Below, in pieces: positions 13,986 to 32,498 of a stretch of DNA of 47,603 nt. The DNA lies in IMG/VR virus record IMGVR_UViG_3300048836_000600, positions 1 through 47,603 of that record; one strand, 5' to 3'. The DNA comes from a virus. Position 1 is the stretch's first letter. Each line of letters opens with the position of its first letter. The position numbers and the translations under genes were made by a program. The notes below the pieces were generated by a model. The model made no database searches and was not told where the DNA came from. It saw only the letters and a list, made by a program, of their open reading frames with translations.

Positions 13986-14203
13986 TGGCCAAACGGAAAG
14001 AGGAGTACCACGAGTTCCGTGTCGAAGAGGTCCGGCACACCAGTGCCAAGGCTGTTCTCTTCAAGCTGGATGCGCTTGAGGAACCCGTGTGGGTTCCGAA
14101 GTCGCAGATGGAGTTCTGCAAGGACAGCATGTGCATCCACATATCCGATTGGCTCGTGAAACAAAAGCCAGAGCTGCTCCAGCTTCTTGAGGGTAAAGAC
14201 TGA
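13985..14203 (+). CDS. Small conserved-looking phage protein before polymerase
   Basis: The 72-residue product starts at GTG 13985, sharing a base with the upstream stop. It has a beta-like core with KAVLFKLDALEEPVWVPKSQ, a pattern I recall from small proteins beside phage replication genes. No function known. Its TGA overlaps the polymerase ATG (TGATG), so translation is probably coupled. Confidence 0.7.
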   Translation: MAKRKEEYHEFRVEEVRHTSAKAVLFKLDALEEPVWVPKSQMEFCKDSMCIHISDWLVKQKPELLQLLEGKD

Positions 14204-16989
14204 TGCCTGCAGTGTCCCCGTCCGACTACACCCTTCCCCTGTTTATTCCCGATTCTGATTGGCGGGCTCCAAAGGAACCGCCAAACCTGTCCGGTGCCAA
14301 ACGGCTTGGCCTCGACACGGAGACCAAAGACCCCGGACTGCTCACGTTTGGCCCTGGTATTCGCCATGGCAAAGCCAACTGCGTCGGGATCAGCTTGGCG
14401 ACTGACGATCAGGCGTGGTACTTCCCCACGGAACATCCTGACGGTAATTGCACATGGGACGTCTACAGTTGGCTGAAGGACACGCTCAAGGCTGACAGGG
14501 ACTACGTCGGGGCCAACCTGCCCTACGACATCGAGATTCTCGATCACTACGGCATCACTGTCGGCGGCCGGTGGCTTGACATACAGGTTGCTGAGCCGCT
14601 TCTCGATGAGGAGCGTGCAGGGGGCTACAAGCTGGACGTGCTCGCGAAGCACTACCTTGGCGTGGGTAAGGACGAGGCGCTGCTGCTCGACGCGGCTGCC
14701 GCCTTCGGTGTCGATCCGAAGGGGGGCTTGTGGCAGCTGCCGGCGAAGTTCGTTGGCCCCTACGCTGAAATGGATGCGCTGCGCTCTCTTCAGGTGTTCG
14801 ATAAACAGTACCCGCTGCTCGAGGCGGAAGACCTTGTCAGGGTGTTCGACATGGAGACGGCGCTGATGCCGATCATCTATGCGATGCGCAAGCAAGGCGT
14901 GCGTATCGATCTCGAGAAGACCGAGCTGCTGAACCAAGAGTGGAAGGCCCGTGAAGACGGGTACATGGCGGATATCCGCGCATCGGTTGGCGGCATGAAG
15001 GTGGACATCTGGTCTGGTAAGCAGTTGGCCCAGTACTGTGACAGGCGAGGAATCGTTTATCCTCGAACGGAAAAAGGCAACCCGTCATTCTCGAATGAGT
15101 GGCTGGCCGCGAGCCCTGATGAAGCGTTGTCGCTCATGGCAGATGCCCGCAAGGTCTCCAAGATGCGCAGGGACTTCATCGAGGGCAGCCTGCTCAAGTA
15201 CCAGATCAACGGCCGGCTACACGCGAACTTCCACCAGATGCGCAGCGACGACGACGGCACGCGCAGCGGCCGACTGTCCAGCTCTCAGCCGAATTTGCAG
15301 CAGATCCCTGCCCGCGATAAGTACTACGGCCCCGCCATGCGCGGCCTGTTCCTGCCGGATGATGGCCTGTGGTTCAGCGGCGATTTCCGTTCACAGGAGC
15401 CTCGGCTGCTTGTGCATTTCGCGCACCTATTGAAGTCGCCTGGAGCGGCGGAAATGGTGGAGCGGTACCGCGTGGACCCTCTGCTGGATATGCACCAGCT
15501 GTGCGCGGATCTGTGCGCGACACCGAAGCGGCAAGCCAAGACCATTGGCCTCGGGCTGTGCATCGCGGAAGGGCAGCGGGTGCTGACGGATAAGGGGCTG
15601 GTCCCTATCGAGGACGTCAAGCTGGAACATAAGGTATGGGATGGGGTAGACTGGGTGCAACATGAGGGCCTAGTGTGCAAAGGCGTTAAGGAGTGGATGA
15701 CCTATGGTGGCCTCTGCGCAACCCCAGAACACGAGGTCTGGACGCACGAACGAGGGAAGATTTCGCTCAGGGAAGCGGCATCCTCGGGCTATACCCTTGT
15801 CCGAAGTGGCGACGAAGCTACAGCAATTGTCCTTGTCGACGCTTCGCCTGGACTACCAGACTCTCCGACTGGACGGCCGCTATCGGAAGATAGAGGGGGA
15901 GTGCACAGCCTGCTCCCAACGGAAAACCTATTACGTGGACAATCTGCTCGGAGGAAAGTCGAAGAAGTGCTCCTGTACGCAAGGGCAAAAGTTCTTCGAC
16001 TCACGGGCAGCACTGTTGGGGAAGCGGTACGACGCTATGGTTCAGCGCTGCAGGACAGATACACACAAGTCCTCGCCGAACTATCGGGGCAGAGGGGTAC
16101 GTGTGCTGTTTCTGTCGCGGGAGCATTTCGTGCGATGGGCGCTGGAGACTTACCCGTCGGACTCCTTCAAAGGCATGGATTTCGACAGGGTGAACAACGA
16201 AGGGGACTACTCTCCTGGGAACCTTCGATTGACCACACGCCGAAGAAACAACCTGAACAAGAGGAGCACGGTGTATTTGCTCGTTGGTGGCACGCCGCGT
16301 CTTCTGGCCGATTGGCCAAGCCCGTACTCCCTATCACGGACTCTGAAACTCGCGAAACAGGGCTACACGGGAGAGCAGATCGTTGCGCAGGCGAGGAACA
16401 CAGTCCGCTTGGGGACAAAGGGCGCGGCGAGGCTACGGGCGCGACTGGCAGAACTCGGGTATACGACCTGCTGAACGCAGGCCCACGCCATAGGTTTACA
16501 TGTAGCAACGTGCTCGTATCCAACTGCTACGGAATGGGTGTCCCAAAGCTCGCGGAGTCACTCGGTCTGCCTCTGCAGGAGGCGGAGGTGCTGCTGGACA
16601 AGTACAACGCAATGATGCCCTTCGTGCTACCGACCGCCAACAAGGCAAAAGCTGTCGCGGAGAAGCGCGGGTACGTGCGCACACTCATGGGCCGCAGGAG
16701 CCGCTTCAAGCACTACAGTGGCTCTACTCGGCGGCAGTACACTCACAAGGCATTGAACCGCATCCTGCAGGGTAGTGGCGCGGACATGATCAAGATGGCG
16801 ATGATCGTAGTCTACCGGGAACTGGGCAAGATCCCGCTGTTGTCCAACCACGACGAGAACAACTACAACATCGTCGAACACAGCGAAGCAAAAGTGCTTG
16901 CGGAGCTGATGGAGAACGCGCTGCCGATTGCTGTGCCAAACAGGATCGATGCCGGCGTAGGCAAGAACTGGTCGGAGGCGCACGGGTGA
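14203..16989 (+). CDS. Family A DNA polymerase precursor containing an intein
   Basis: The 928-residue precursor should give a 606-residue polymerase after splicing. The N-terminal 3'-5' exonuclease has LDTE (D38, E40), GANLPYDIE (103-111) and YAEMD (187-191). The polymerase part has motif A GDFRSQEPRLLVH (D394), motif B split by the intein (KTIGLGL before, CYGMGVPKLAE after) and motif C NHDEN (D884 in the precursor). There is no 5'-3' exonuclease domain, as usual for phage enzymes. The gene is coupled to its neighbours by TGATG and GTGA overlaps. Activity depends on splicing, because the intein interrupts the O-helix that contacts dNTP. Confidence 0.93.
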   Translation: MPAVSPSDYTLPLFIPDSDWRAPKEPPNLSGAKRLGLDTETKDPGLLTFGPGIRHGKANCVGISLATDDQAWYFPTEHPDGNCTWDVYSWLKDTLKADRDYVGANLPYDIEILDHYGITVGGRWLDIQVAEPLLDEERAGGYKLDVLAKHYLGVGKDEALLLDAAAAFGVDPKGGLWQLPAKFVGPYAEMDALRSLQVFDKQYPLLEAEDLVRVFDMETALMPIIYAMRKQGVRIDLEKTELLNQEWKAREDGYMADIRASVGGMKVDIWSGKQLAQYCDRRGIVYPRTEKGNPSFSNEWLAASPDEALSLMADARKVSKMRRDFIEGSLLKYQINGRLHANFHQMRSDDDGTRSGRLSSSQPNLQQIPARDKYYGPAMRGLFLPDDGLWFSGDFRSQEPRLLVHFAHLLKSPGAAEMVERYRVDPLLDMHQLCADLCATPKRQAKTIGLGLCIAEGQRVLTDKGLVPIEDVKLEHKVWDGVDWVQHEGLVCKGVKEWMTYGGLCATPEHEVWTHERGKISLREAASSGYTLVRSGDEATAIVLVDASPGLPDSPTGRPLSEDRGGVHSLLPTENLLRGQSARRKVEEVLLYARAKVLRLTGSTVGEAVRRYGSALQDRYTQVLAELSGQRGTCAVSVAGAFRAMGAGDLPVGLLQRHGFRQGEQRRGLLSWEPSIDHTPKKQPEQEEHGVFARWWHAASSGRLAKPVLPITDSETRETGLHGRADRCAGEEHSPLGDKGRGEATGATGRTRVYDLLNAGPRHRFTCSNVLVSNCYGMGVPKLAESLGLPLQEAEVLLDKYNAMMPFVLPTANKAKAVAEKRGYVRTLMGRRSRFKHYSGSTRRQYTHKALNRILQGSGADMIKMAMIVVYRELGKIPLLSNHDENNYNIVEHSEAKVLAELMENALPIAVPNRIDAGVGKNWSEAHG
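15559..16524 (+). mobile_element. Intein in polymerase motif B
   Basis: The element spans C453 to N774 of the precursor (322 residues). Block A starts at Cys1 and reads CIAEGQRVLTDKGLVPIEDV. Block B is TPEHEVW. Block F is VYDLLNAGPRHRF. Block G ends VLVSN, followed by Cys+1 of the C-extein. The penultimate residue is Ser where inteins usually have His. The insertion point is the conserved polymerase motif B, a known kind of intein site. Between about 15810 and 16440 the polymerase frame is open but looks non-coding; the +1 frame there encodes an HNH endonuclease. Confidence 0.9.
15704..16474 (+). CDS. HNH homing endonuclease nested in the intein, +1 frame
   Basis: A complete frame of 256 residues overlaps the intein in the +1 frame. 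Residues about 58-95 form a cysteine-bearing zinc-ribbon-like segment (ECTAC, KKCSC). Residues 158-188 (FDRVNNEGDYSPGNLRLTTR, then RNNLNKR) are a typical HNH homing-endonuclease pattern. The C-terminal SLSRTLKLAKQGYTGEQIV looks like a small DNA-binding helix-turn-helix. AAGGAG lies ten bases before ATG 15704; GTG 15807 is an alternative that avoids overlapping intein block B. The gene ends 50 bases before the intein end. Confidence 0.85.
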   Translation: MVASAQPQNTRSGRTNEGRFRSGKRHPRAIPLSEVATKLQQLSLSTLRLDYQTLRLDGRYRKIEGECTACSQRKTYYVDNLLGGKSKKCSCTQGQKFFDSRAALLGKRYDAMVQRCRTDTHKSSPNYRGRGVRVLFLSREHFVRWALETYPSDSFKGMDFDRVNNEGDYSPGNLRLTTRRRNNLNKRSTVYLLVGGTPRLLADWPSPYSLSRTLKLAKQGYTGEQIVAQARNTVRLGTKGAARLRARLAELGYTTC

Positions 16990-25039: not shown

Positions 25040-28000
25040 CTAGGACAAGTTCGATGCGCCCGCTGTAAAGTAGTTGGCATTCGGGATGTAAACGGTCGAC
25101 TTCCATCGGATCAGCTGCAGGTCGGCAGCCGATGCGGAATTTTTGCGGAACTCGACATTTAGTTTTACTGAACTTGTCCACCCTACCCTGTCGACCTTGC
25201 ACAGCAGTCTGATCTGGATAATCCGCGATCGGCCGGCGCGTATCGTTACGGTGTTCGTTGTCCCGCCGATGGCGGTGTAACTCGCATCGGCGTCGATGGC
25301 ATACATGGCGCGATAGTCCATCGTCGCGGTATTGGTCGCGCTCAGGTTTTCGATTTCCATCTCGAAATCGAAATAGAAATGCTGCGCGGGTTCCTGCAGG
25401 CGCTTTGCGTCGGCGCCCGCCGTGCTTCGCGTCGGATGGTATAGCGTGACGATCGGCGAGGCCGACGGGACTGCCTCGTAGGTAGTCGATTTCGCGGTGG
25501 TCCCTGGGCTGTCGTATTGGTATTCGTCAAGTACCGCGCAAAAGATCGGCGCCATCAGCCGCGGCGATTCGCTGGTTTGAATCATCAGCACGCTGCCGCC
25601 GACCGCCGGCTCGATCACGCTGGTTTTAATCACCGATCCCTCGACGGTGCCGCTGACCACGAATGTATTCGTGGCGGCATCGTAGTAAACCTTTGCGCCG
25701 CTGCCGGGCGTGCCACTGACTGTTCCCTTTGTGCCGCTGCCTATCCAGAGTGGGAAGTCGTTTCCGCCTGACAGCACGACCCGCTCAGAGGTATCCGGCT
25801 TCGTGGTTATCGTGTTGCCAACGACCAGCGTTGCCTCGAGCTTATCTGCCGTGACAGCCCCATTAACAATCAGCGCCGAGTCGGTCATATCTATGACGCG
25901 GAAATCATCGAAGTAGAATACGCCGCCACTGCCCCCTGTCACTGCGAAGTTCACGGTCGCGTGGGATGCGTCCGAGGGCACAAGGCCGGAAAACGACCTC
26001 TGCTCCCAAGCCAAGTAGTTGATGGCGGTTAGTGACGCCATATCTACAGAGCCAACTGGAACTACAGAGGCGCCTGTTAGCCTGTAAAAGGATACCCAGG
26101 CATCAATCTGGAACGCGGAGATAGCCGCATTTTCTCTGGTGAGCCTAAAACTTGCCAGCAGGCTTCCACCTTGGCGCACTGGGAAGCGAGCTGACTCAAC
26201 GGAGGTGTACTGCCCTGCCCCCTTACCAAGAATCTGGACACATTTGTCCCCGTAGTACGACCCGGTAGTTATCACGGGGTATGCGCCACTAGATACGGTT
26301 GCTGTCCACGAAGACACCCAAGGTGCTTCCGAGAACTCGAAGCTCGGATCCTGTACCAAGTTGGATCCGCCGACCTGCATCTTCTCAGCAGTTATGGAGC
26401 CAGCAAGAATCTTGTCGGCAGTGATCGCGTTCGCCTGGATGCTGTCGGCCGAAATGGCGTCTGCAGCCACCTTCAAGGCGGTGACTGCACCGTCCTCGAT
26501 GAGTACGCCCGTGACGAGTTCCTCGAGGCGGAGGTCAGCGACCCGCTGCTCCATGCCCGAGGCAGCCCCATAGCAAAGCAGGACGCCGATTCGCATGTAC
26601 TTTGGCGCAGTCAGCGTCGGGTACTGGCCAACGCCTTTAGGCCCGAACGTGCCCTCCCACTTCGTCCACGCAGTTGTCAGCGGTCTGCCGGCCTTGAGGT
26701 AGTGGTAGCCGCCTTGGCCGCCTGGCCACGTCGATGAGACGGAGTACGGCGGGTCAATCGGGCTATTCGCGACGATGTGCGTCCCGTTCGCGTCGAAGAA
26801 GGCGACGAGCAGGTAGGAGTCACCGCCCGCCCCGACACCGTTGTCCTTTATCCAGCAACTGACACTGTAGGACTTGGTGATGTCGACGGGTATCAGAGCG
26901 GAGTTCATCACCTCCGCGTACCAGGACGAGTTGGTTTTAAGGACGTTGGTGCCAGAAGGAGACGAGCTGTCGGACACGATAGTGGCGTAGTTGTATGACG
27001 GGTTCCAATGCGTCCAAGCATTCGTGAGATCGCCCGCGTTGCCGATTGTCGGCAGCGTGAATGTCGGGTCGGAGTTGATCGCTCGCCCCGACGAAACAGC
27101 CAAGGCCATGTCGCCCGGTCTGATCAGCCCAATGTCCGAATAGTTGGCAATCAGCGGACTCATCACCGAGCCACCGAGGGACGTCGCGGAGATGATGGTG
27201 TCCACGGGCGAGGATGTCTTCGAGTAGGCGTACTCGCCGATGATCGCCATGCTGGACGTGAGGGTGAACGATGTCCAGCCCGATGCCGTGTCGTACTCCC
27301 ACACTTCGCTGAAGGAACGCTTGCGGCGGGCCAAGGCGATACGGTAATTCGCAGTGCCGCCGTAAGTGCCAGAGCCATTCGCAGAGAACGGCGAACCGAC
27401 ACCAGAGAGATCCGCGATGATGTAGCCGCCCTTCAGCTGCTCTGAGTACCCGTGCAAAGTTCCGGGCGCTGACGCTATAGTCGTGCCGTTGAAGTTGACG
27501 CTCCATGGATACGCCCCGGCAACGCCCCCGGAGAAGCCGCAAACGTACAGGGAGCCAACGCGTGAAGAGCCGACATTCAAGACGCCGCGGATGACCGTGG
27601 CCAGCAGGCCGCCGGCAGCTCCCGGTGGCCCCTGTGCTCCGTCCACTCCGTCAACCGACATGACTGTCGCTGCGGTCCACTCGTTCGCTGCGATCGTGTC
27701 GGCAGTGATGTTGCTGTAGGCATTGGCCACTGTCACCCACAGGTACGGATTTCCTGACGCCGGGATGGACTGCGTCCATCCGTTGAGCGTGCCGCCTGTC
27801 AGGTTGCGGTTCGAGTAGGTGTACGTGAAGGTTCCGGTCGGCAGCCCCGGCGCCGTAATGCCGCTCGCTGACCGCTGGTAGAGATAGATGAGCGCCGAGT
27901 TGTACCCGGTGGCGCCTGTAGCCCCGGTGCCACCAGCGGTGCCGAGCAGCGCAGGGGTAGACCACTGGGCATCGGGGATGGTGTCCGTCGCGGCACTACT

Positions 28001-31000
28001 GATCGCGACGGCATGCGTAACCCACAGGTTGGCGTGGCCTGTGTCGGGTATCGCTGTGAGCCAGGGCGGCGGTACGTTCGCCATTGAGCCATCGGAGAAG
28101 GTGTACTCTATAGGTACCCCGCCAAGCGTGGTGGACACGGGGGAAGGCGCCGTCGCTGCCCGCTGGTACAGATACGCCGTTGCGGTATTCTGGCCTGTGC
28201 CGGCTGTGCCATCTTGGGCAATCAATGCGGCATCCGACCAGTCCGCAGGCTCTATGGCTATCGTGGCGTTCTGGCTGGAGACATTCTTGGATATCTGCCA
28301 GCGGAACCCACCCCCGGTCGTCGGCATGGTCTGGGACCAGCCATTGAAGCCGGCTCCCGTGAGCGCTGTCGTCGAGAAATTGTACGTTAGCGTTGTCGTC
28401 GGGTCAGCGGGGGCAACGCTACTGCCTGTCCGCTGGTACAGGATGACCGTCGCGTTGCTGTAGCCGGCAGGGCCGGTTGCACCGCCCTCCTCGAGATCGG
28501 TGGCGGTGAGCGTCGAGACGCCCACGTCCGGCAGCCATGGCGAGGTGTTGCCGTAGGTGTCCTTCCAGCGCACCCAGAAGTAGTGCAGCGTCTGTGTGGC
28601 GGTCGTGGGCAGCGTCGTGCGAATCGTGTTGACGCCCGTCAGATCCGGGGTCGGTGCGACAAAGAACGTCTGGTTGGCCGCGTTCGCGTGCGTGGAACTC
28701 ACGCCGTAGCGGAACTCGAAACTGGCGAGCGAGGTGGTCTCGATCGTGCTGACGTCGATCACCGCGTCAAAGCCACCGGGTATGCCAGTCACTGTGAGTC
28801 CATTGACCGGATCGAGGGGGATAGCCCCGGTGGTCGCGGTGTACGCAACGACTCCGGACCATGGGGACATGGGGGCCAGATTCTTCGGGACGAGGCGTAC
28901 CTGGAACTCGTACGTGAGGCCCGGTGTCACAGCCAAACTGAAGGAGCCGCTGGCATTTTCCGCCCTGAGCTGCTGCCAGCTTCCCGGCGTACCAGCAACC
29001 GTGTGGTCCCGGTAGCGGAGGAGCGCGGACATCTGCGTGAAGGCGTCGTACGTTGAGCCGCGGTTGTAGTGGATACCAACATAGTACTGCCGGCCGCCGC
29101 CCACGATGATATCCGCCATGTTCGGATTGGCCGCGACGCTGATGATGTCAGGCGCTGCCGGCGTACGCATGTTCGGGTTGGCGGGCTGTGTGATACCGGG
29201 GTCGTAGGCCGGGATGTCTTGCTTGTGCGCGGTGTACACCGCCGGGTTGTCATCGACGGCCGTGATAGTGGCAGTCAGCATGTCCTCTGGGGTGACACCA
29301 ATGACCTTCAGGTTACGGGTAATGAGCCCCGTAAGCCCAACCGCGGCCAAATCCCCAACTTGCCAAGTCGCCGAGGTGGCCTCTGGCACAGTCCATGCGG
29401 TGACGTAGTCGCCGTAGGCCGATGGCGTAGCTATGCCCGTGGAGATGTTGACGGCATCTGACCGCCGGACCCGCAACATGTACGACGCCCCAACCTCCGT
29501 CAAGACCGGCTCGTCTAGAGTTACAACATTGCCGCCAAAGCCATTCGACACCTTTGAGACGATACGGCCAGCGATTATCCCGATGAGGCCGGCATCCGCC
29601 TGCATCGTGACAGAGTCGCCGCGCTGAACGAGCAAGTGCTCCACCCCAACCTTGAAGCTGTAGGTCTCAGGCCTCAGCCGCGTCGTGGCCAGCAGCCTGC
29701 GGCCGTGCTTCCAGGCGTTATTGGCAACGGTTACGCCGGGCAGACGGATGGTCTCGAACCGAGAGGCTGCCTTCACAGGCAGCGCGACAATCGCCGCGCC
29801 GGACGAGGCGGCCGTTACCAGTCCAGGCGTGACGATAGTGATCTGCGTCGAAGAAATGATCGAGGCCACCCGGTACAGCGTGGCATCTGCACCGATGGTT
29901 ATATTGCCGTTGACCACGAAGGAGCCGGTTCCGCCGGTAACGTTCAAGGTGGTTGCAGCGGCGCTATGAGTACCACTGAGGGTGTAGCCTGTCGCAGATG
30001 GGGCGGTGCCCGTATCCGTGTACCCATCGTCGTACGCGATAACCTGATCCTGCTCGTTGCCCTTTTCTTCTGAGTCGAACTCGATCTTGATCGCATGAGG
30101 CATATCTATGAAGGTCTTCTGGGCCTTGAAGTCCCAGTAGTTCTTCTGCGTGAACATCTGCTTCAGCGTGCCGGACTGCTCGACGACGACGCTGAACTTG
30201 CCGTCGGACACGGTGATTCCGCCCCATGCCGTTCCAGCAGCGCGTTTCAAGCAATCAAACACGCTGGCTGCGTAGTCTACTACTTCGTCGTAGGCGAACG
30301 TCTCTGTGGTTATCGCGCCGTTGTGGAAGTTCACGAAGGAGTCAACATCGATCTGGTCGGCGTACATCTGCAGACGAGTCGGGGTATCTGTATCGTAGAT
30401 CGCCCGGTGGTTGACAGCCGGATTCGTGAGCATGTCAAGCATGGCCCACGCAGGCGATCGGGTGGCCACGAGCGACCCGGTCGGAGCGTTCGTGTTCGCG
30501 TCCCACGCGTACAGGTGGCGAGTAGCCGTTATCTGCAGATTGTCCAGCGTGCCGTTGATCTGGTCCGTGGCCTTGATCCGCAGAGAAATGTACGTCGCTG
30601 CGCCGCCATTGGTGCTGGACAGCGCAACCGCCTGACTCGGCGTGTAGGTCCGCAGGAGGTTGAACGTGATGGACTGGGAGTACTCGTGAAAGTACGGGCG
30701 CTGCTCAATCGTAGAGGCAAGCGAGTGGCCCAGCGTCCACGGGTGACCTGCCTCGCCGAACGAGGAGCGCGTGACCTTTACGCGGTACTGGCCAGCAGCC
30801 GGCGTTGGCCACTTGAGACCAACACGGAACGGATTCTTCGTGTGCTCGGTGACGAGGAACGACGTGTCCCTGTCGTTTACACAGATTGACACTTGTCTAG
30901 GGTACGAGGGGACAGGCGGATTCCAGTTTGCCGTCAGGATGTCGAAGTCGTAACACACCCCGTTGGTGGTCGTGATAGGGATCAGCCCGCCCACCATGTA

Positions 31001-32149
31001 CGGCGTTCCCTCGGTCATTGAGAGCCCGTACTTGAAGATGTCGCTGTTAATGCGCACGCCTGCGGGGATGGTCAGCCGGGTGTAGCCGGAAACAGGTGAC
31101 GCTGCAGGGGCGTTAAGTGTCACGGGGCCGCCGGCATACGCCGCGTTGAAGTGGTTCGACGCGAACAGGTTGCCCGTATCCGCATCAAGCGTCGGCACAC
31201 CATTTACGTTGGTAGCTCCACCATCAGTGGTGGTGTCCCACGCCGTGTCACGGACGTTGAGCCATGGGTCTGTCGTCGGATTCAGGGAGGCGAGCTGGTA
31301 CTCGACGCGGAAATTGACGTACAGCGGCCTGCGATCGCCACGGCTGTTCGTCCACGAGAATCCCTGGCCGAACACAAGATCGATGGACAGGTGCGTAGCG
31401 TCTGCTTCCGATGTCGCTGTGTGCGAAGGATTCAACGTCCCCTCAATAGCCGCTACGACATCGTCAAGGTCTATGCCAATAGCCTCTTCCTGGATGTCCG
31501 ACCATGGCGGCGGGTCCGGGTAATGCTCCCCGTAGGTAACGCCCTCGAAGTCCTGTAGCCCCGTCTCACCGATCTTGACGTCCTCGATCGTGCACTGGCC
31601 AGTGGTCACGAAGAACAGCATGTTGAGGTACTGGTCTTGGCCAACCAGCTCGGTGTACGGCGCAGCGCAGACAGACGGAAAAAAGGTCCGCTTGCCGTAG
31701 AGAACAGGCAAAGGGCCGTACGGATTGAACTGGTTCCGGCTGCCAGTCAGGGTGTTCAACTTCTTCGGCGGACCCGTGCTGTCCGTCTTCGGGATGTCAA
31801 GGTTGGCGACCATGACAAGGGCCGCCGCGACGGCGACGTAGGGGAGAAGGATCATGGTGTACAGGATTGCCACTGCCACGTAGCCCGTTGCACCGAGGGC
31901 CGCGATTATGGGATACGCCGCCGCCTGCCCCGCCGGCCGGCCTACAATGGTGATCAGCTTAGCGCCAGCCGGGACCACGAAGTCAACGGGGTTGTCGATG
32001 TGCTCGCCGTCTACCGCAACGGCATACACGCCGCCTTTGGACAGGATCTCCGACAGGGCAAAGCCTGCGGGAACCTCGCACTCGAGAGTGTCGCGAACGA
32101 GCGGGTTAGGCCGCGCTACGATTCGGCAGGTAGTAACCAAGGATTCCAT
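25040..32149 (-). CDS. Tail tip / host specificity protein J-like
   Basis: The very large protein (about 2369 residues from ATG 32149; a TTG at 32170 would add seven) begins with a conserved-looking J region (YGPLPVLYGKRTFFPSVCAA). A long hydrophobic stretch lies at about 80-125. The middle has fibronectin-like domains. Three repeats of about 95 residues beginning xxLYQR start near residues 1231, 1324 and 1420. The C-terminal part (including GGSNLVQDPSFEF and jelly-roll-like sequence) is likely the receptor-binding end. It forms the central tip of the siphovirus tail and binds the host. Confidence 0.9.
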   Translation of the reverse strand: MESLVTTCRIVARPNPLVRDTLECEVPAGFALSEILSKGGVYAVAVDGEHIDNPVDFVVPAGAKLITIVGRPAGQAAAYPIIAALGATGYVAVAILYTMILLPYVAVAAALVMVANLDIPKTDSTGPPKKLNTLTGSRNQFNPYGPLPVLYGKRTFFPSVCAAPYTELVGQDQYLNMLFFVTTGQCTIEDVKIGETGLQDFEGVTYGEHYPDPPPWSDIQEEAIGIDLDDVVAAIEGTLNPSHTATSEADATHLSIDLVFGQGFSWTNSRGDRRPLYVNFRVEYQLASLNPTTDPWLNVRDTAWDTTTDGGATNVNGVPTLDADTGNLFASNHFNAAYAGGPVTLNAPAASPVSGYTRLTIPAGVRINSDIFKYGLSMTEGTPYMVGGLIPITTTNGVCYDFDILTANWNPPVPSYPRQVSICVNDRDTSFLVTEHTKNPFRVGLKWPTPAAGQYRVKVTRSSFGEAGHPWTLGHSLASTIEQRPYFHEYSQSITFNLLRTYTPSQAVALSSTNGGAATYISLRIKATDQINGTLDNLQITATRHLYAWDANTNAPTGSLVATRSPAWAMLDMLTNPAVNHRAIYDTDTPTRLQMYADQIDVDSFVNFHNGAITTETFAYDEVVDYAASVFDCLKRAAGTAWGGITVSDGKFSVVVEQSGTLKQMFTQKNYWDFKAQKTFIDMPHAIKIEFDSEEKGNEQDQVIAYDDGYTDTGTAPSATGYTLSGTHSAAATTLNVTGGTGSFVVNGNITIGADATLYRVASIISSTQITIVTPGLVTAASSGAAIVALPVKAASRFETIRLPGVTVANNAWKHGRRLLATTRLRPETYSFKVGVEHLLVQRGDSVTMQADAGLIGIIAGRIVSKVSNGFGGNVVTLDEPVLTEVGASYMLRVRRSDAVNISTGIATPSAYGDYVTAWTVPEATSATWQVGDLAAVGLTGLITRNLKVIGVTPEDMLTATITAVDDNPAVYTAHKQDIPAYDPGITQPANPNMRTPAAPDIISVAANPNMADIIVGGGRQYYVGIHYNRGSTYDAFTQMSALLRYRDHTVAGTPGSWQQLRAENASGSFSLAVTPGLTYEFQVRLVPKNLAPMSPWSGVVAYTATTGAIPLDPVNGLTVTGIPGGFDAVIDVSTIETTSLASFEFRYGVSSTHANAANQTFFVAPTPDLTGVNTIRTTLPTTATQTLHYFWVRWKDTYGNTSPWLPDVGVSTLTATDLEEGGATGPAGYSNATVILYQRTGSSVAPADPTTTLTYNFSTTALTGAGFNGWSQTMPTTGGGFRWQISKNVSSQNATIAIEPADWSDAALIAQDGTAGTGQNTATAYLYQRAATAPSPVSTTLGGVPIEYTFSDGSMANVPPPWLTAIPDTGHANLWVTHAVAISSAATDTIPDAQWSTPALLGTAGGTGATGATGYNSALIYLYQRSASGITAPGLPTGTFTYTYSNRNLTGGTLNGWTQSIPASGNPYLWVTVANAYSNITADTIAANEWTAATVMSVDGVDGAQGPPGAAGGLLATVIRGVLNVGSSRVGSLYVCGFSGGVAGAYPWSVNFNGTTIASAPGTLHGYSEQLKGGYIIADLSGVGSPFSANGSGTYGGTANYRIALARRKRSFSEVWEYDTASGWTSFTLTSSMAIIGEYAYSKTSSPVDTIISATSLGGSVMSPLIANYSDIGLIRPGDMALAVSSGRAINSDPTFTLPTIGNAGDLTNAWTHWNPSYNYATIVSDSSSPSGTNVLKTNSSWYAEVMNSALIPVDITKSYSVSCWIKDNGVGAGGDSYLLVAFFDANGTHIVANSPIDPPYSVSSTWPGGQGGYHYLKAGRPLTTAWTKWEGTFGPKGVGQYPTLTAPKYMRIGVLLCYGAASGMEQRVADLRLEELVTGVLIEDGAVTALKVAADAISADSIQANAITADKILAGSITAEKMQVGGSNLVQDPSFEFSEAPWVSSWTATVSSGAYPVITTGSYYGDKCVQILGKGAGQYTSVESARFPVRQGGSLLASFRLTRENAAISAFQIDAWVSFYRLTGASVVPVGSVDMASLTAINYLAWEQRSFSGLVPSDASHATVNFAVTGGSGGVFYFDDFRVIDMTDSALIVNGAVTADKLEATLVVGNTITTKPDTSERVVLSGGNDFPLWIGSGTKGTVSGTPGSGAKVYYDAATNTFVVSGTVEGSVIKTSVIEPAVGGSVLMIQTSESPRLMAPIFCAVLDEYQYDSPGTTAKSTTYEAVPSASPIVTLYHPTRSTAGADAKRLQEPAQHFYFDFEMEIENLSATNTATMDYRAMYAIDADASYTAIGGTTNTVTIRAGRSRIIQIRLLCKVDRVGWTSSVKLNVEFRKNSASAADLQLIRWKSTVYIPNANYFTAGASNLS

Positions 32150-32498
32150 TGCGTACCTTGCTTGTTCCAAGACGAACGACCACAGCGCCGTTGTCCTTTG
32201 TCATGTGAAGCATTTCTCGACCGTTGACGCATACGCCAACGTGCGGGCGAGTTCCCTTGAAGTGCCACAGCACCAGCGCCCCCTCTACTGGGCCGTCGAC
32301 CTTCACGAATTCGTGGGCATGGTGCGTGACGAGCGATTGGCACTGGTCCTCGTCATCGTAGTCGTAGCCGGAGCGACTTAGCACAATGCCAAACTGCTCC
32401 TTGAACACAAACCGGATAAGCCCCCAGCAATCAAAGCTGTCAGGCCCATCGCCCTGCGGCGAGAATGGCGCACCGATGTACTTGTCCGACCAGGCCAT
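32106..32498 (-). CDS. NlpC/P60-type tail assembly protein (K-like)
   Basis: The 130-residue protein has DSFDCWGLIRFVF with likely nucleophile C24, RPHVGVCV with H86, and MLHM. This is the NlpC/P60 domain of lambda gpK-type tail proteins that cut cell wall during DNA entry. It overlaps the 5' end of the J gene by 44 bases and lacks the JAB (Mov34) domain of full lambda K. Confidence 0.85.
   Translation of the reverse strand: MAWSDKYIGAPFSPQGDGPDSFDCWGLIRFVFKEQFGIVLSRSGYDYDDEDQCQSLVTHHAHEFVKVDGPVEGALVLWHFKGTRPHVGVCVNGREMLHMTKDNGAVVVRLGTSKVRNGILGYYLPNRSAA

Follow-up and report, generated by a model that had tools for sequence, protein, structure and literature searches.

An open reading frame (ORF) of 928 codons without a stop occupies positions 14203–16989 on the plus strand of the DNA stretch analysed here, a 47.6-kb virus record that is referred to below as the window. 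The ORF encodes a family-A DNA polymerase, as assigned over its whole length by Pfam (DNA_pol_A and a 3'-5' exonuclease) and by the NCBIfam PolA models. The best NCBIfam match is to the aminoadenine polymerase DpoZ, but this identity was set aside, as the two exteins, scored apart, reach only 228 and 69 bits where the cut-off is 500. Elsewhere in the window, a minus-strand ORF of 2376 aa (25040–32170) matches the central tail fiber J family, which identifies the window as a tailed phage with its tail genes on the minus strand.

Motif B of the polymerase is split between KTIGLGL and CYGMG by an in-frame insert of exactly 322 codons (15559–16524, plus strand). The insert is flanked by an N-extein (14203–15558, Pfam and NCBIfam PolA models) and by a C-extein that includes the stop codon (16525–16989, PolA models). 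Its first codon is TGC and its last AAC, and the next codon is again TGC. Read in the polymerase (host) frame, the insert opens with CIAEGQRVLTDKGLVPIEDV, contains the intein block B as TPEH (TxxH, T55–H58, 15721–15732, from alignments) and closes with RVYDLLNAGPRHRFTCSNVLVSN, followed by Cys+1. Blocks F and G (VYDLLNAGPRHRFTCSNVLVSN) lie at 16459–16524, as judged from the conserved C-terminus and a predicted local confidence (pLDDT) of about 97. The assignment as an intein is based on conserved residues, the model fold and Foldseek. Cys1, T55-x-x-H58, D303, Asn322 and Cys+1 are conserved across relatives, with T55, H58 and also D303 invariant in intein alignments of 30 and 31 rows. In the relatives, the terminal residues are those of class 1 inteins (C1 in 168/168, a final Asn in 168/168, and Cys, Ser or Thr at +1 in 167/168). 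The penultimate residue of the window intein is Ser rather than His; Ser is found here in 27 and His in 134 of the 168 relatives, and active inteins with a penultimate residue other than His exist. By every feature that could be tested, apart from the penultimate His, the element in the window is thus an intein, but a non-canonical one.

In a PHROG search, the host-frame intein matched a single family (phrog_26005, E 1.6e-10), and only with its N-terminal residues 18–75; no PHROG match was obtained for the middle. Pfam and NCBIfam recognised neither the window intein nor the window HNH protein described below. The AlphaFold model of the host-frame intein has a pLDDT of about 97 for residues 1–90 and 290–322, whereas residues 91–289 are at 39–69, mostly 40–60. 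A host-frame loop of about 199 codons (15829–16425), which is overlapped by the HNH coding region, is accordingly predicted to be disordered, an assignment that also draws on the pN/pS values of relatives. The best Foldseek match of this model is the Mtu RecA intein (2in0, E 7.8e-4, probability 1.00), with Npu DnaE inteins also matched, and a profile of the intein N-termini matches the Nanoarchaeum NEQ068 intein in PDB (E 1.6e-4). By these models, the host-frame ends form an intein splicing (HINT) fold around a disordered loop of about 200 residues.

Shifted by +1 against the polymerase frame, an ORF for an HNH-family endonuclease (256 aa plus stop) is found on the same strand at 15704–16474. 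Its start overlaps block B, and its stop codon (16472–16474) overlaps the start of blocks F and G. The assignment is based on PHROG, invariant residues and AlphaFold: the +1-frame product matches the HNH families phrog_374 (E 2.9e-23) and phrog_3377 (E 5.7e-18), all residues that are invariant in the alignment of relatives are intact, and the model has a mean pLDDT of 88. Invariant or nearly invariant columns mark a putative zinc-binding Cys cluster (C67-C70...C89-C91, 15902–15976) and the HNH motif region (D161-R162...N165...Y169...N173...N185, 16184–16258). The first His of the HNH motif is replaced by Arg (DR) in the HNH family of these inteins and in the free-standing phage relatives that were compared, while the Asn positions are kept. 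Pfam HNH_3 matches only 2 of 29 relatives, a PDB sequence search with the HNH profile gave no match, and Foldseek with the HNH model found no significant match to a solved structure in PDB. Scans of viral contigs with the window HNH protein and with an N-extein pattern were both empty, and very close relatives of the window phage are therefore absent from that collection.

A Shine-Dalgarno-like TAAGGAG (15687–15693, containing AAGGAG at 15688–15693) is located 10 nt upstream of ATG 15704, and the +1-frame stop TGA 15698 lies just upstream of this ATG. The coordinates and PHROG matches agree with the first-pass annotation, which had placed the intein ends in the polymerase frame and the HNH gene, preceded by AAGGAG, in the +1 frame. 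That annotation had also proposed an analysis of GC content by codon position. In the intein middle, GC is maximal at host position 1 (0.71), which is the HNH wobble position, and minimal at host position 3 (0.48), which is HNH position 2; the N-extein values are 0.65/0.42/0.75. This switch of phase within the insert is as predicted if it is the HNH frame that codes.

Frame offset in related inteins

Inteins of the same type were found by tblastn in many phage polymerases from phage records, and alignments of the intein N-terminus added about 225 loci from viral contigs and bacterial genomes. As the relatives were gathered via the splicing domain alone, the search was blind to the frame of any HNH gene, and all three forward frames of each relative were searched with HNH profiles. 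An HNH domain was identified in 139 of 168 distinct complete inteins. It is in the +1 frame in 136 cases, in the +2 frame in three, and never in the host frame, while 29 inteins are without HNH. The host frame is open in all 168, and every complete relative of more than 200 aa (n = 137) has its HNH out of frame. One further locus with an apparent host-frame HNH (L240) has an early frameshift and an incomplete host frame.

The arrangement is not confined to uncultured viruses. With the host frame open in each case, the HNH gene is in +1 in Gardnerella AB1, Streptococcus Javan113 and Javan255, Shewanella SFCi1 and Caulobacter GB2A, and in +2 in EBPR siphovirus 2 and Pseudomonas MR14. It is also in +2 in Salmonella SE2, LDDK01, Sp4 and Ijeoma and in Sodalis SO-1, and in +1 in APSE-4. 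The host gene is usually PolA, with several insertion sites, joined by single cases of SF2/ResIII helicases and a DnaB-like protein. Loci L122, L238 and L168 carry the same intein type in SF2/ResIII helicase genes and the DnaB-like protein (sub-threshold Pfam match). As the double-coded layout recurs in well over 100 related phage and prophage inteins, we conclude that it is stable and does not stem from a sequencing error.

There are several variations on this theme. One polymerase ORF (L169, L170) has an intein at each of two sites, both of them with a separate HNH out of frame, and at four loci (L071, L165, L232, L233) two intein N-termini lie near each other. In about 20 of 93 lineages the HNH ORF extends beyond the intein end into the C-extein (e.g. 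L002, 3428–3449). Deletion derivatives or mini-inteins of 120–184 aa (L005, L172, L007, L107) represent compact splicing domains that are possible tools. Downstream of one intein (L097, 1682–1737) there is a sub-threshold Rfam match to a Betaproteobacteria toxic small RNA (E 0.0011, 36.3 bits against 50).

Constraint on two frames and the start of the HNH gene

In the window, the third frame over the HNH gene contains 5 stops. When the gene was shuffled by synonymous codons, the host frame stayed open in only 2 of 5000 trials (mean 6.1 stops), and shuffling of the codon order had the same outcome. Across the 93 HNH-bearing lineages, defined as clusters at 80% nucleotide identity, the HNH domains contain 0 host-frame stops, where synonymous shuffles predict 775, and 1026 stops in the third frame. 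At the HNH wobble position, T is used at 0 of 4955 places where a host stop would result, compared to 24.9% in general. In two phage HNH genes that are free-standing, the equivalent frame is interrupted by 38 and 46 stops.

The pattern of substitution changes along the intein. A set of 69 inteins that are all 309 aa long shows differences of 0.23/0.13/0.52 at host positions 1/2/3 in codons 1–48, as is typical when the host frame is coding, and of 0.47/0.22/0.16 in codons 86–282, where the HNH frame is coding. In most lineages, the best start is an ATG at codon 49 that results from the sequence TAT-G, and a Shine-Dalgarno-like site frequently accompanies it. Such a site (at least 5 bases) precedes the start codon in 73 of the 93 HNH lineages, but also occurs in 19 of 29 mini-inteins, and TAT-G is likewise found for 25 of 27 Tyr codons in mini-inteins. 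As mini-inteins retain both features about as often, neither alone proves a start site, and they were dropped as proof of internal initiation in favour of a test based on codon positions. Mini-inteins without HNH, matched by the divergence of codons 1–48, served as the control. Host third positions in codons 61–72 and 73–84 differ at 0.31 and 0.21 in HNH-bearing inteins, compared to 0.59 and 0.62 in mini-inteins. Relative to codons 1–48, the third-position rate over codons 61–84 is 0.42 in HNH inteins and 1.00 in mini-inteins, a difference that was reached in 0 of 500 label permutations. The HNH domain begins only near codon 86. Constraint over codons 61–84 that is restricted to HNH inteins thus indicates that translation of the +1 ORF begins well ahead of the HNH domain and covers block B, and this is consistent with an HNH start at codon 49.

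Two-frame constraint is clear only from about codon 61, and this would also be compatible with programmed frameshifting, a device that is used by phages; the product would then be a fusion of N-extein, intein and HNH instead of a separate protein. We consider this improbable, as in the window a +1 stop closely precedes ATG 15704, and in 43 of the 93 lineages the ATG at the codon-49 place is likewise preceded by a +1 stop within five codons. In addition, HNH genes occur in both the +1 and the +2 frame, so that one type of shift cannot serve all of them.

Slightly less probable still is that the HNH gene is a decaying relic which is no longer expressed, with only the splicing domain still of importance. 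Deletion derivatives do exist (Javan422 with 168 aa, and mini-inteins of 120–143 aa), and the copy in Streptococcus phage PhiSdyV1524 (L009, 3234) has a stop near the C-terminus in the HNH frame while its host frame is intact. Against this stand the intact invariant residues of the window HNH protein and the rates in relatives: for pairs at 80–97% identity, the middle has a pN/pS of 0.12 when read in the HNH frame, compared to 1.66 when read in the host frame, while the intein ends have host-frame values of 0.15 and 0.19. Nei-Gojobori ratios are biased in overlapping genes, so the main weight is placed on the contrast between segments. Counts of stops within the HNH domain were set aside as a measure of decay: of the 21 cases, the majority may simply mark where shorter proteins end naturally. 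The first-pass annotation had described the host frame as open for 322 codons with a middle that does not look like protein, and this description is confirmed. The sequence comparisons show that selection acts on both frames: in the host frame it maintains openness and intact ends, in the HNH frame the encoded protein.

HNH genes in introns are common among phages, and a group I intron with an HNH ORF, removed from the RNA, is how the element of Sodalis phage SO-1 has been annotated: gp38/gp39 is given as a DNA polymerase with a type I self-splicing intron and the HNH inside (L249, 1815–2573). Its annotators thus noticed the overlapping HNH and labelled the element a type I intron; among the isolates examined, this is the only one with an annotated HNH, attributed to the intron. 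We regard an intron as very unlikely. There was no Rfam match up to E 1 in window positions 15300–16800 and no intron match in ten relatives including SO-1; the ends of the insert bear intein motifs and show protein-level conservation in the host frame; and this frame never has a stop, an openness that an RNA intron would not require. The SO-1 sequence itself is in keeping with an intein whose HNH lies in the +2 frame.

The remaining alternative is that the window has a normal large intein, with its endonuclease in frame, which sequencing or assembly indels have disrupted. One or two such indels had been named beforehand as what would refute the double-coded reading, and it could be said in their favour that the window is a single metagenome-derived record. 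They have the smallest chance of all and are refuted for the intein family by the recurrence of the same +1 offset in 93 lineages (including independently sequenced isolates and prophages), by the lack of any in-frame version among the relatives found, and by a codon use that avoids host-frame stops across the whole HNH gene.

Mobility and proposed mechanism

The HNH tree tracks the insertion site, with 9 changes compared to 37 in shuffles, and the HNH proteins nearest to that of the window (about 49–52% identical; L110, L151, L145, L119) are from the same FG[LF]/CYG site. Distances of splicing domains and HNH proteins correlate (r = 0.78), which indicates that the two usually travel together. 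This is a long-lived architecture, whose splicing domain and HNH diverged in step. The window element had initially been interpreted as a mini-intein invaded by a separate endonuclease gene; a splicing domain with an HNH gene borne in its loop in another frame is indeed what is found, but it is not a recent one-off invasion. A link to split inteins with free endonucleases had also been suggested; no split form occurred among the relatives found.

An exact empty-site allele is found in Jerseyvirus, which carries a relative of the window element. The element is polymorphic there: demigod has 299 extra codons exactly at the site while skrot is empty, and the exteins are 96% identical. In the same comparison (L250/L252), the 30 nt immediately upstream of the site match at only 67%, whereas the 100 nt downstream are identical. 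The low upstream identity perhaps reflects co-conversion or immunity of the cleavage site.

We favour, with considerable confidence, an interpretation of the window element as a class-1-type intein in a phage DNA polymerase, with its homing endonuclease encoded by a nested gene in the +1 frame and made separately. The whole polymerase-intein-polymerase ORF would be translated straight through. The conserved ends would then fold as a splicing domain around some 200 meaningless residues, and the intein would be excised in the manner of a mini-intein. A separate HNH protein would arise by internal initiation at ATG 15704, aided by the TAAGGAG inside the intein, and would act as a homing endonuclease on intein-free polymerase genes, thus spreading the element. 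Splicing, internal initiation, DNA cleavage and homing are activities that we infer from sequence comparison.

A more general proposal, that a whole lineage of phage inteins (in PolA, DnaB-like and SF2 helicase genes) has its endonuclease overprinted as an independently expressed gene and that the overlap is perhaps adaptive, is made tentatively, as we rate it possible but somewhat doubtful. If true, endonuclease dosage would be freed from the dosage of the host protein. Also, most frameshifts in the endonuclease would be lethal to an essential host gene, so that the decay of homing endonucleases would be slowed.

Large inteins are usually described as fusions of a splicing and an endonuclease domain, while here separate genes appear to share the same DNA. 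In a widespread phage lineage the endonuclease would never be part of the intein, and the annotation of such inteins should change. The elements provide a strong example of overprinting in nature, in which the mini-inteins that have lost the endonuclease serve as an internal control, and are possibly an intermediate between mini-inteins and free-standing homing genes. As they are carried by cultured phages of Salmonella, Streptococcus, Caulobacter and Shewanella, the arrangement is testable now.

Comparison with known systems

Fractured genes with split inteins and free-standing endonuclease genes were reportedly described by Dassa and colleagues in 2009. As in these, the endonuclease of the window element has its own gene, located between the two halves of the splicing domain, but host gene and intein form one continuous frame with which the endonuclease gene overlaps.

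Canonical large inteins have an in-frame endonuclease, examples being PI-SceI with its LAGLIDADG endonuclease and the HNH intein in the dCTP deaminase of cyanophage CL131 (PMC6293099). Like the window element, they carry splicing blocks at both ends, and their homing endonuclease lies in the loop that connects blocks B and F. However, their endonuclease is part of the same polypeptide, while that of the window is encoded by a separate, overlapping gene. The same type of host gene, phage DNA polymerase, also harbours mobile group I introns that contain an HNH gene (e.g. I-PfoP3I, PMC3428280); there, too, this gene is nested in a self-splicing element and translated separately, as we propose for the window element. 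They differ in that removal of the window element is proposed to occur at the protein level, that no intron RNA was found, and that the host frame must stay open.

Beyond PMC11855218 and possibly a preprint cited therein (Gosselin et al. 2025), we found no other report in the literature. According to the citing paper, the preprint deals with actinobacteriophage inteins of non-canonical architecture and with overlapping frames, which are frequent in actinobacteriophages; as far as can be judged from this citation, similar inteins with overlapping frames may be reported there. The nearest published case is the ShiLan domain, which, together with the Pacc40 insertion, was described in actinophage DNA methylases as containing an out-of-frame HNH (Arsenault, Gosselin and Gogarten 2025, PMC11855218). 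The likeness is considerable: both are insertions in phage genes that leave the host frame without stops, hide an HNH in another frame and have a disjunct distribution. In ShiLan, no splicing domain of an intein or intron can be detected, and the insertion is presumed to be retained in the protein (PMC11855218). In contrast, the HNH of the window element is flanked by a clear intein splicing domain, and the host genes are those for DNA polymerase and also for DnaB-like and SF2 helicases.
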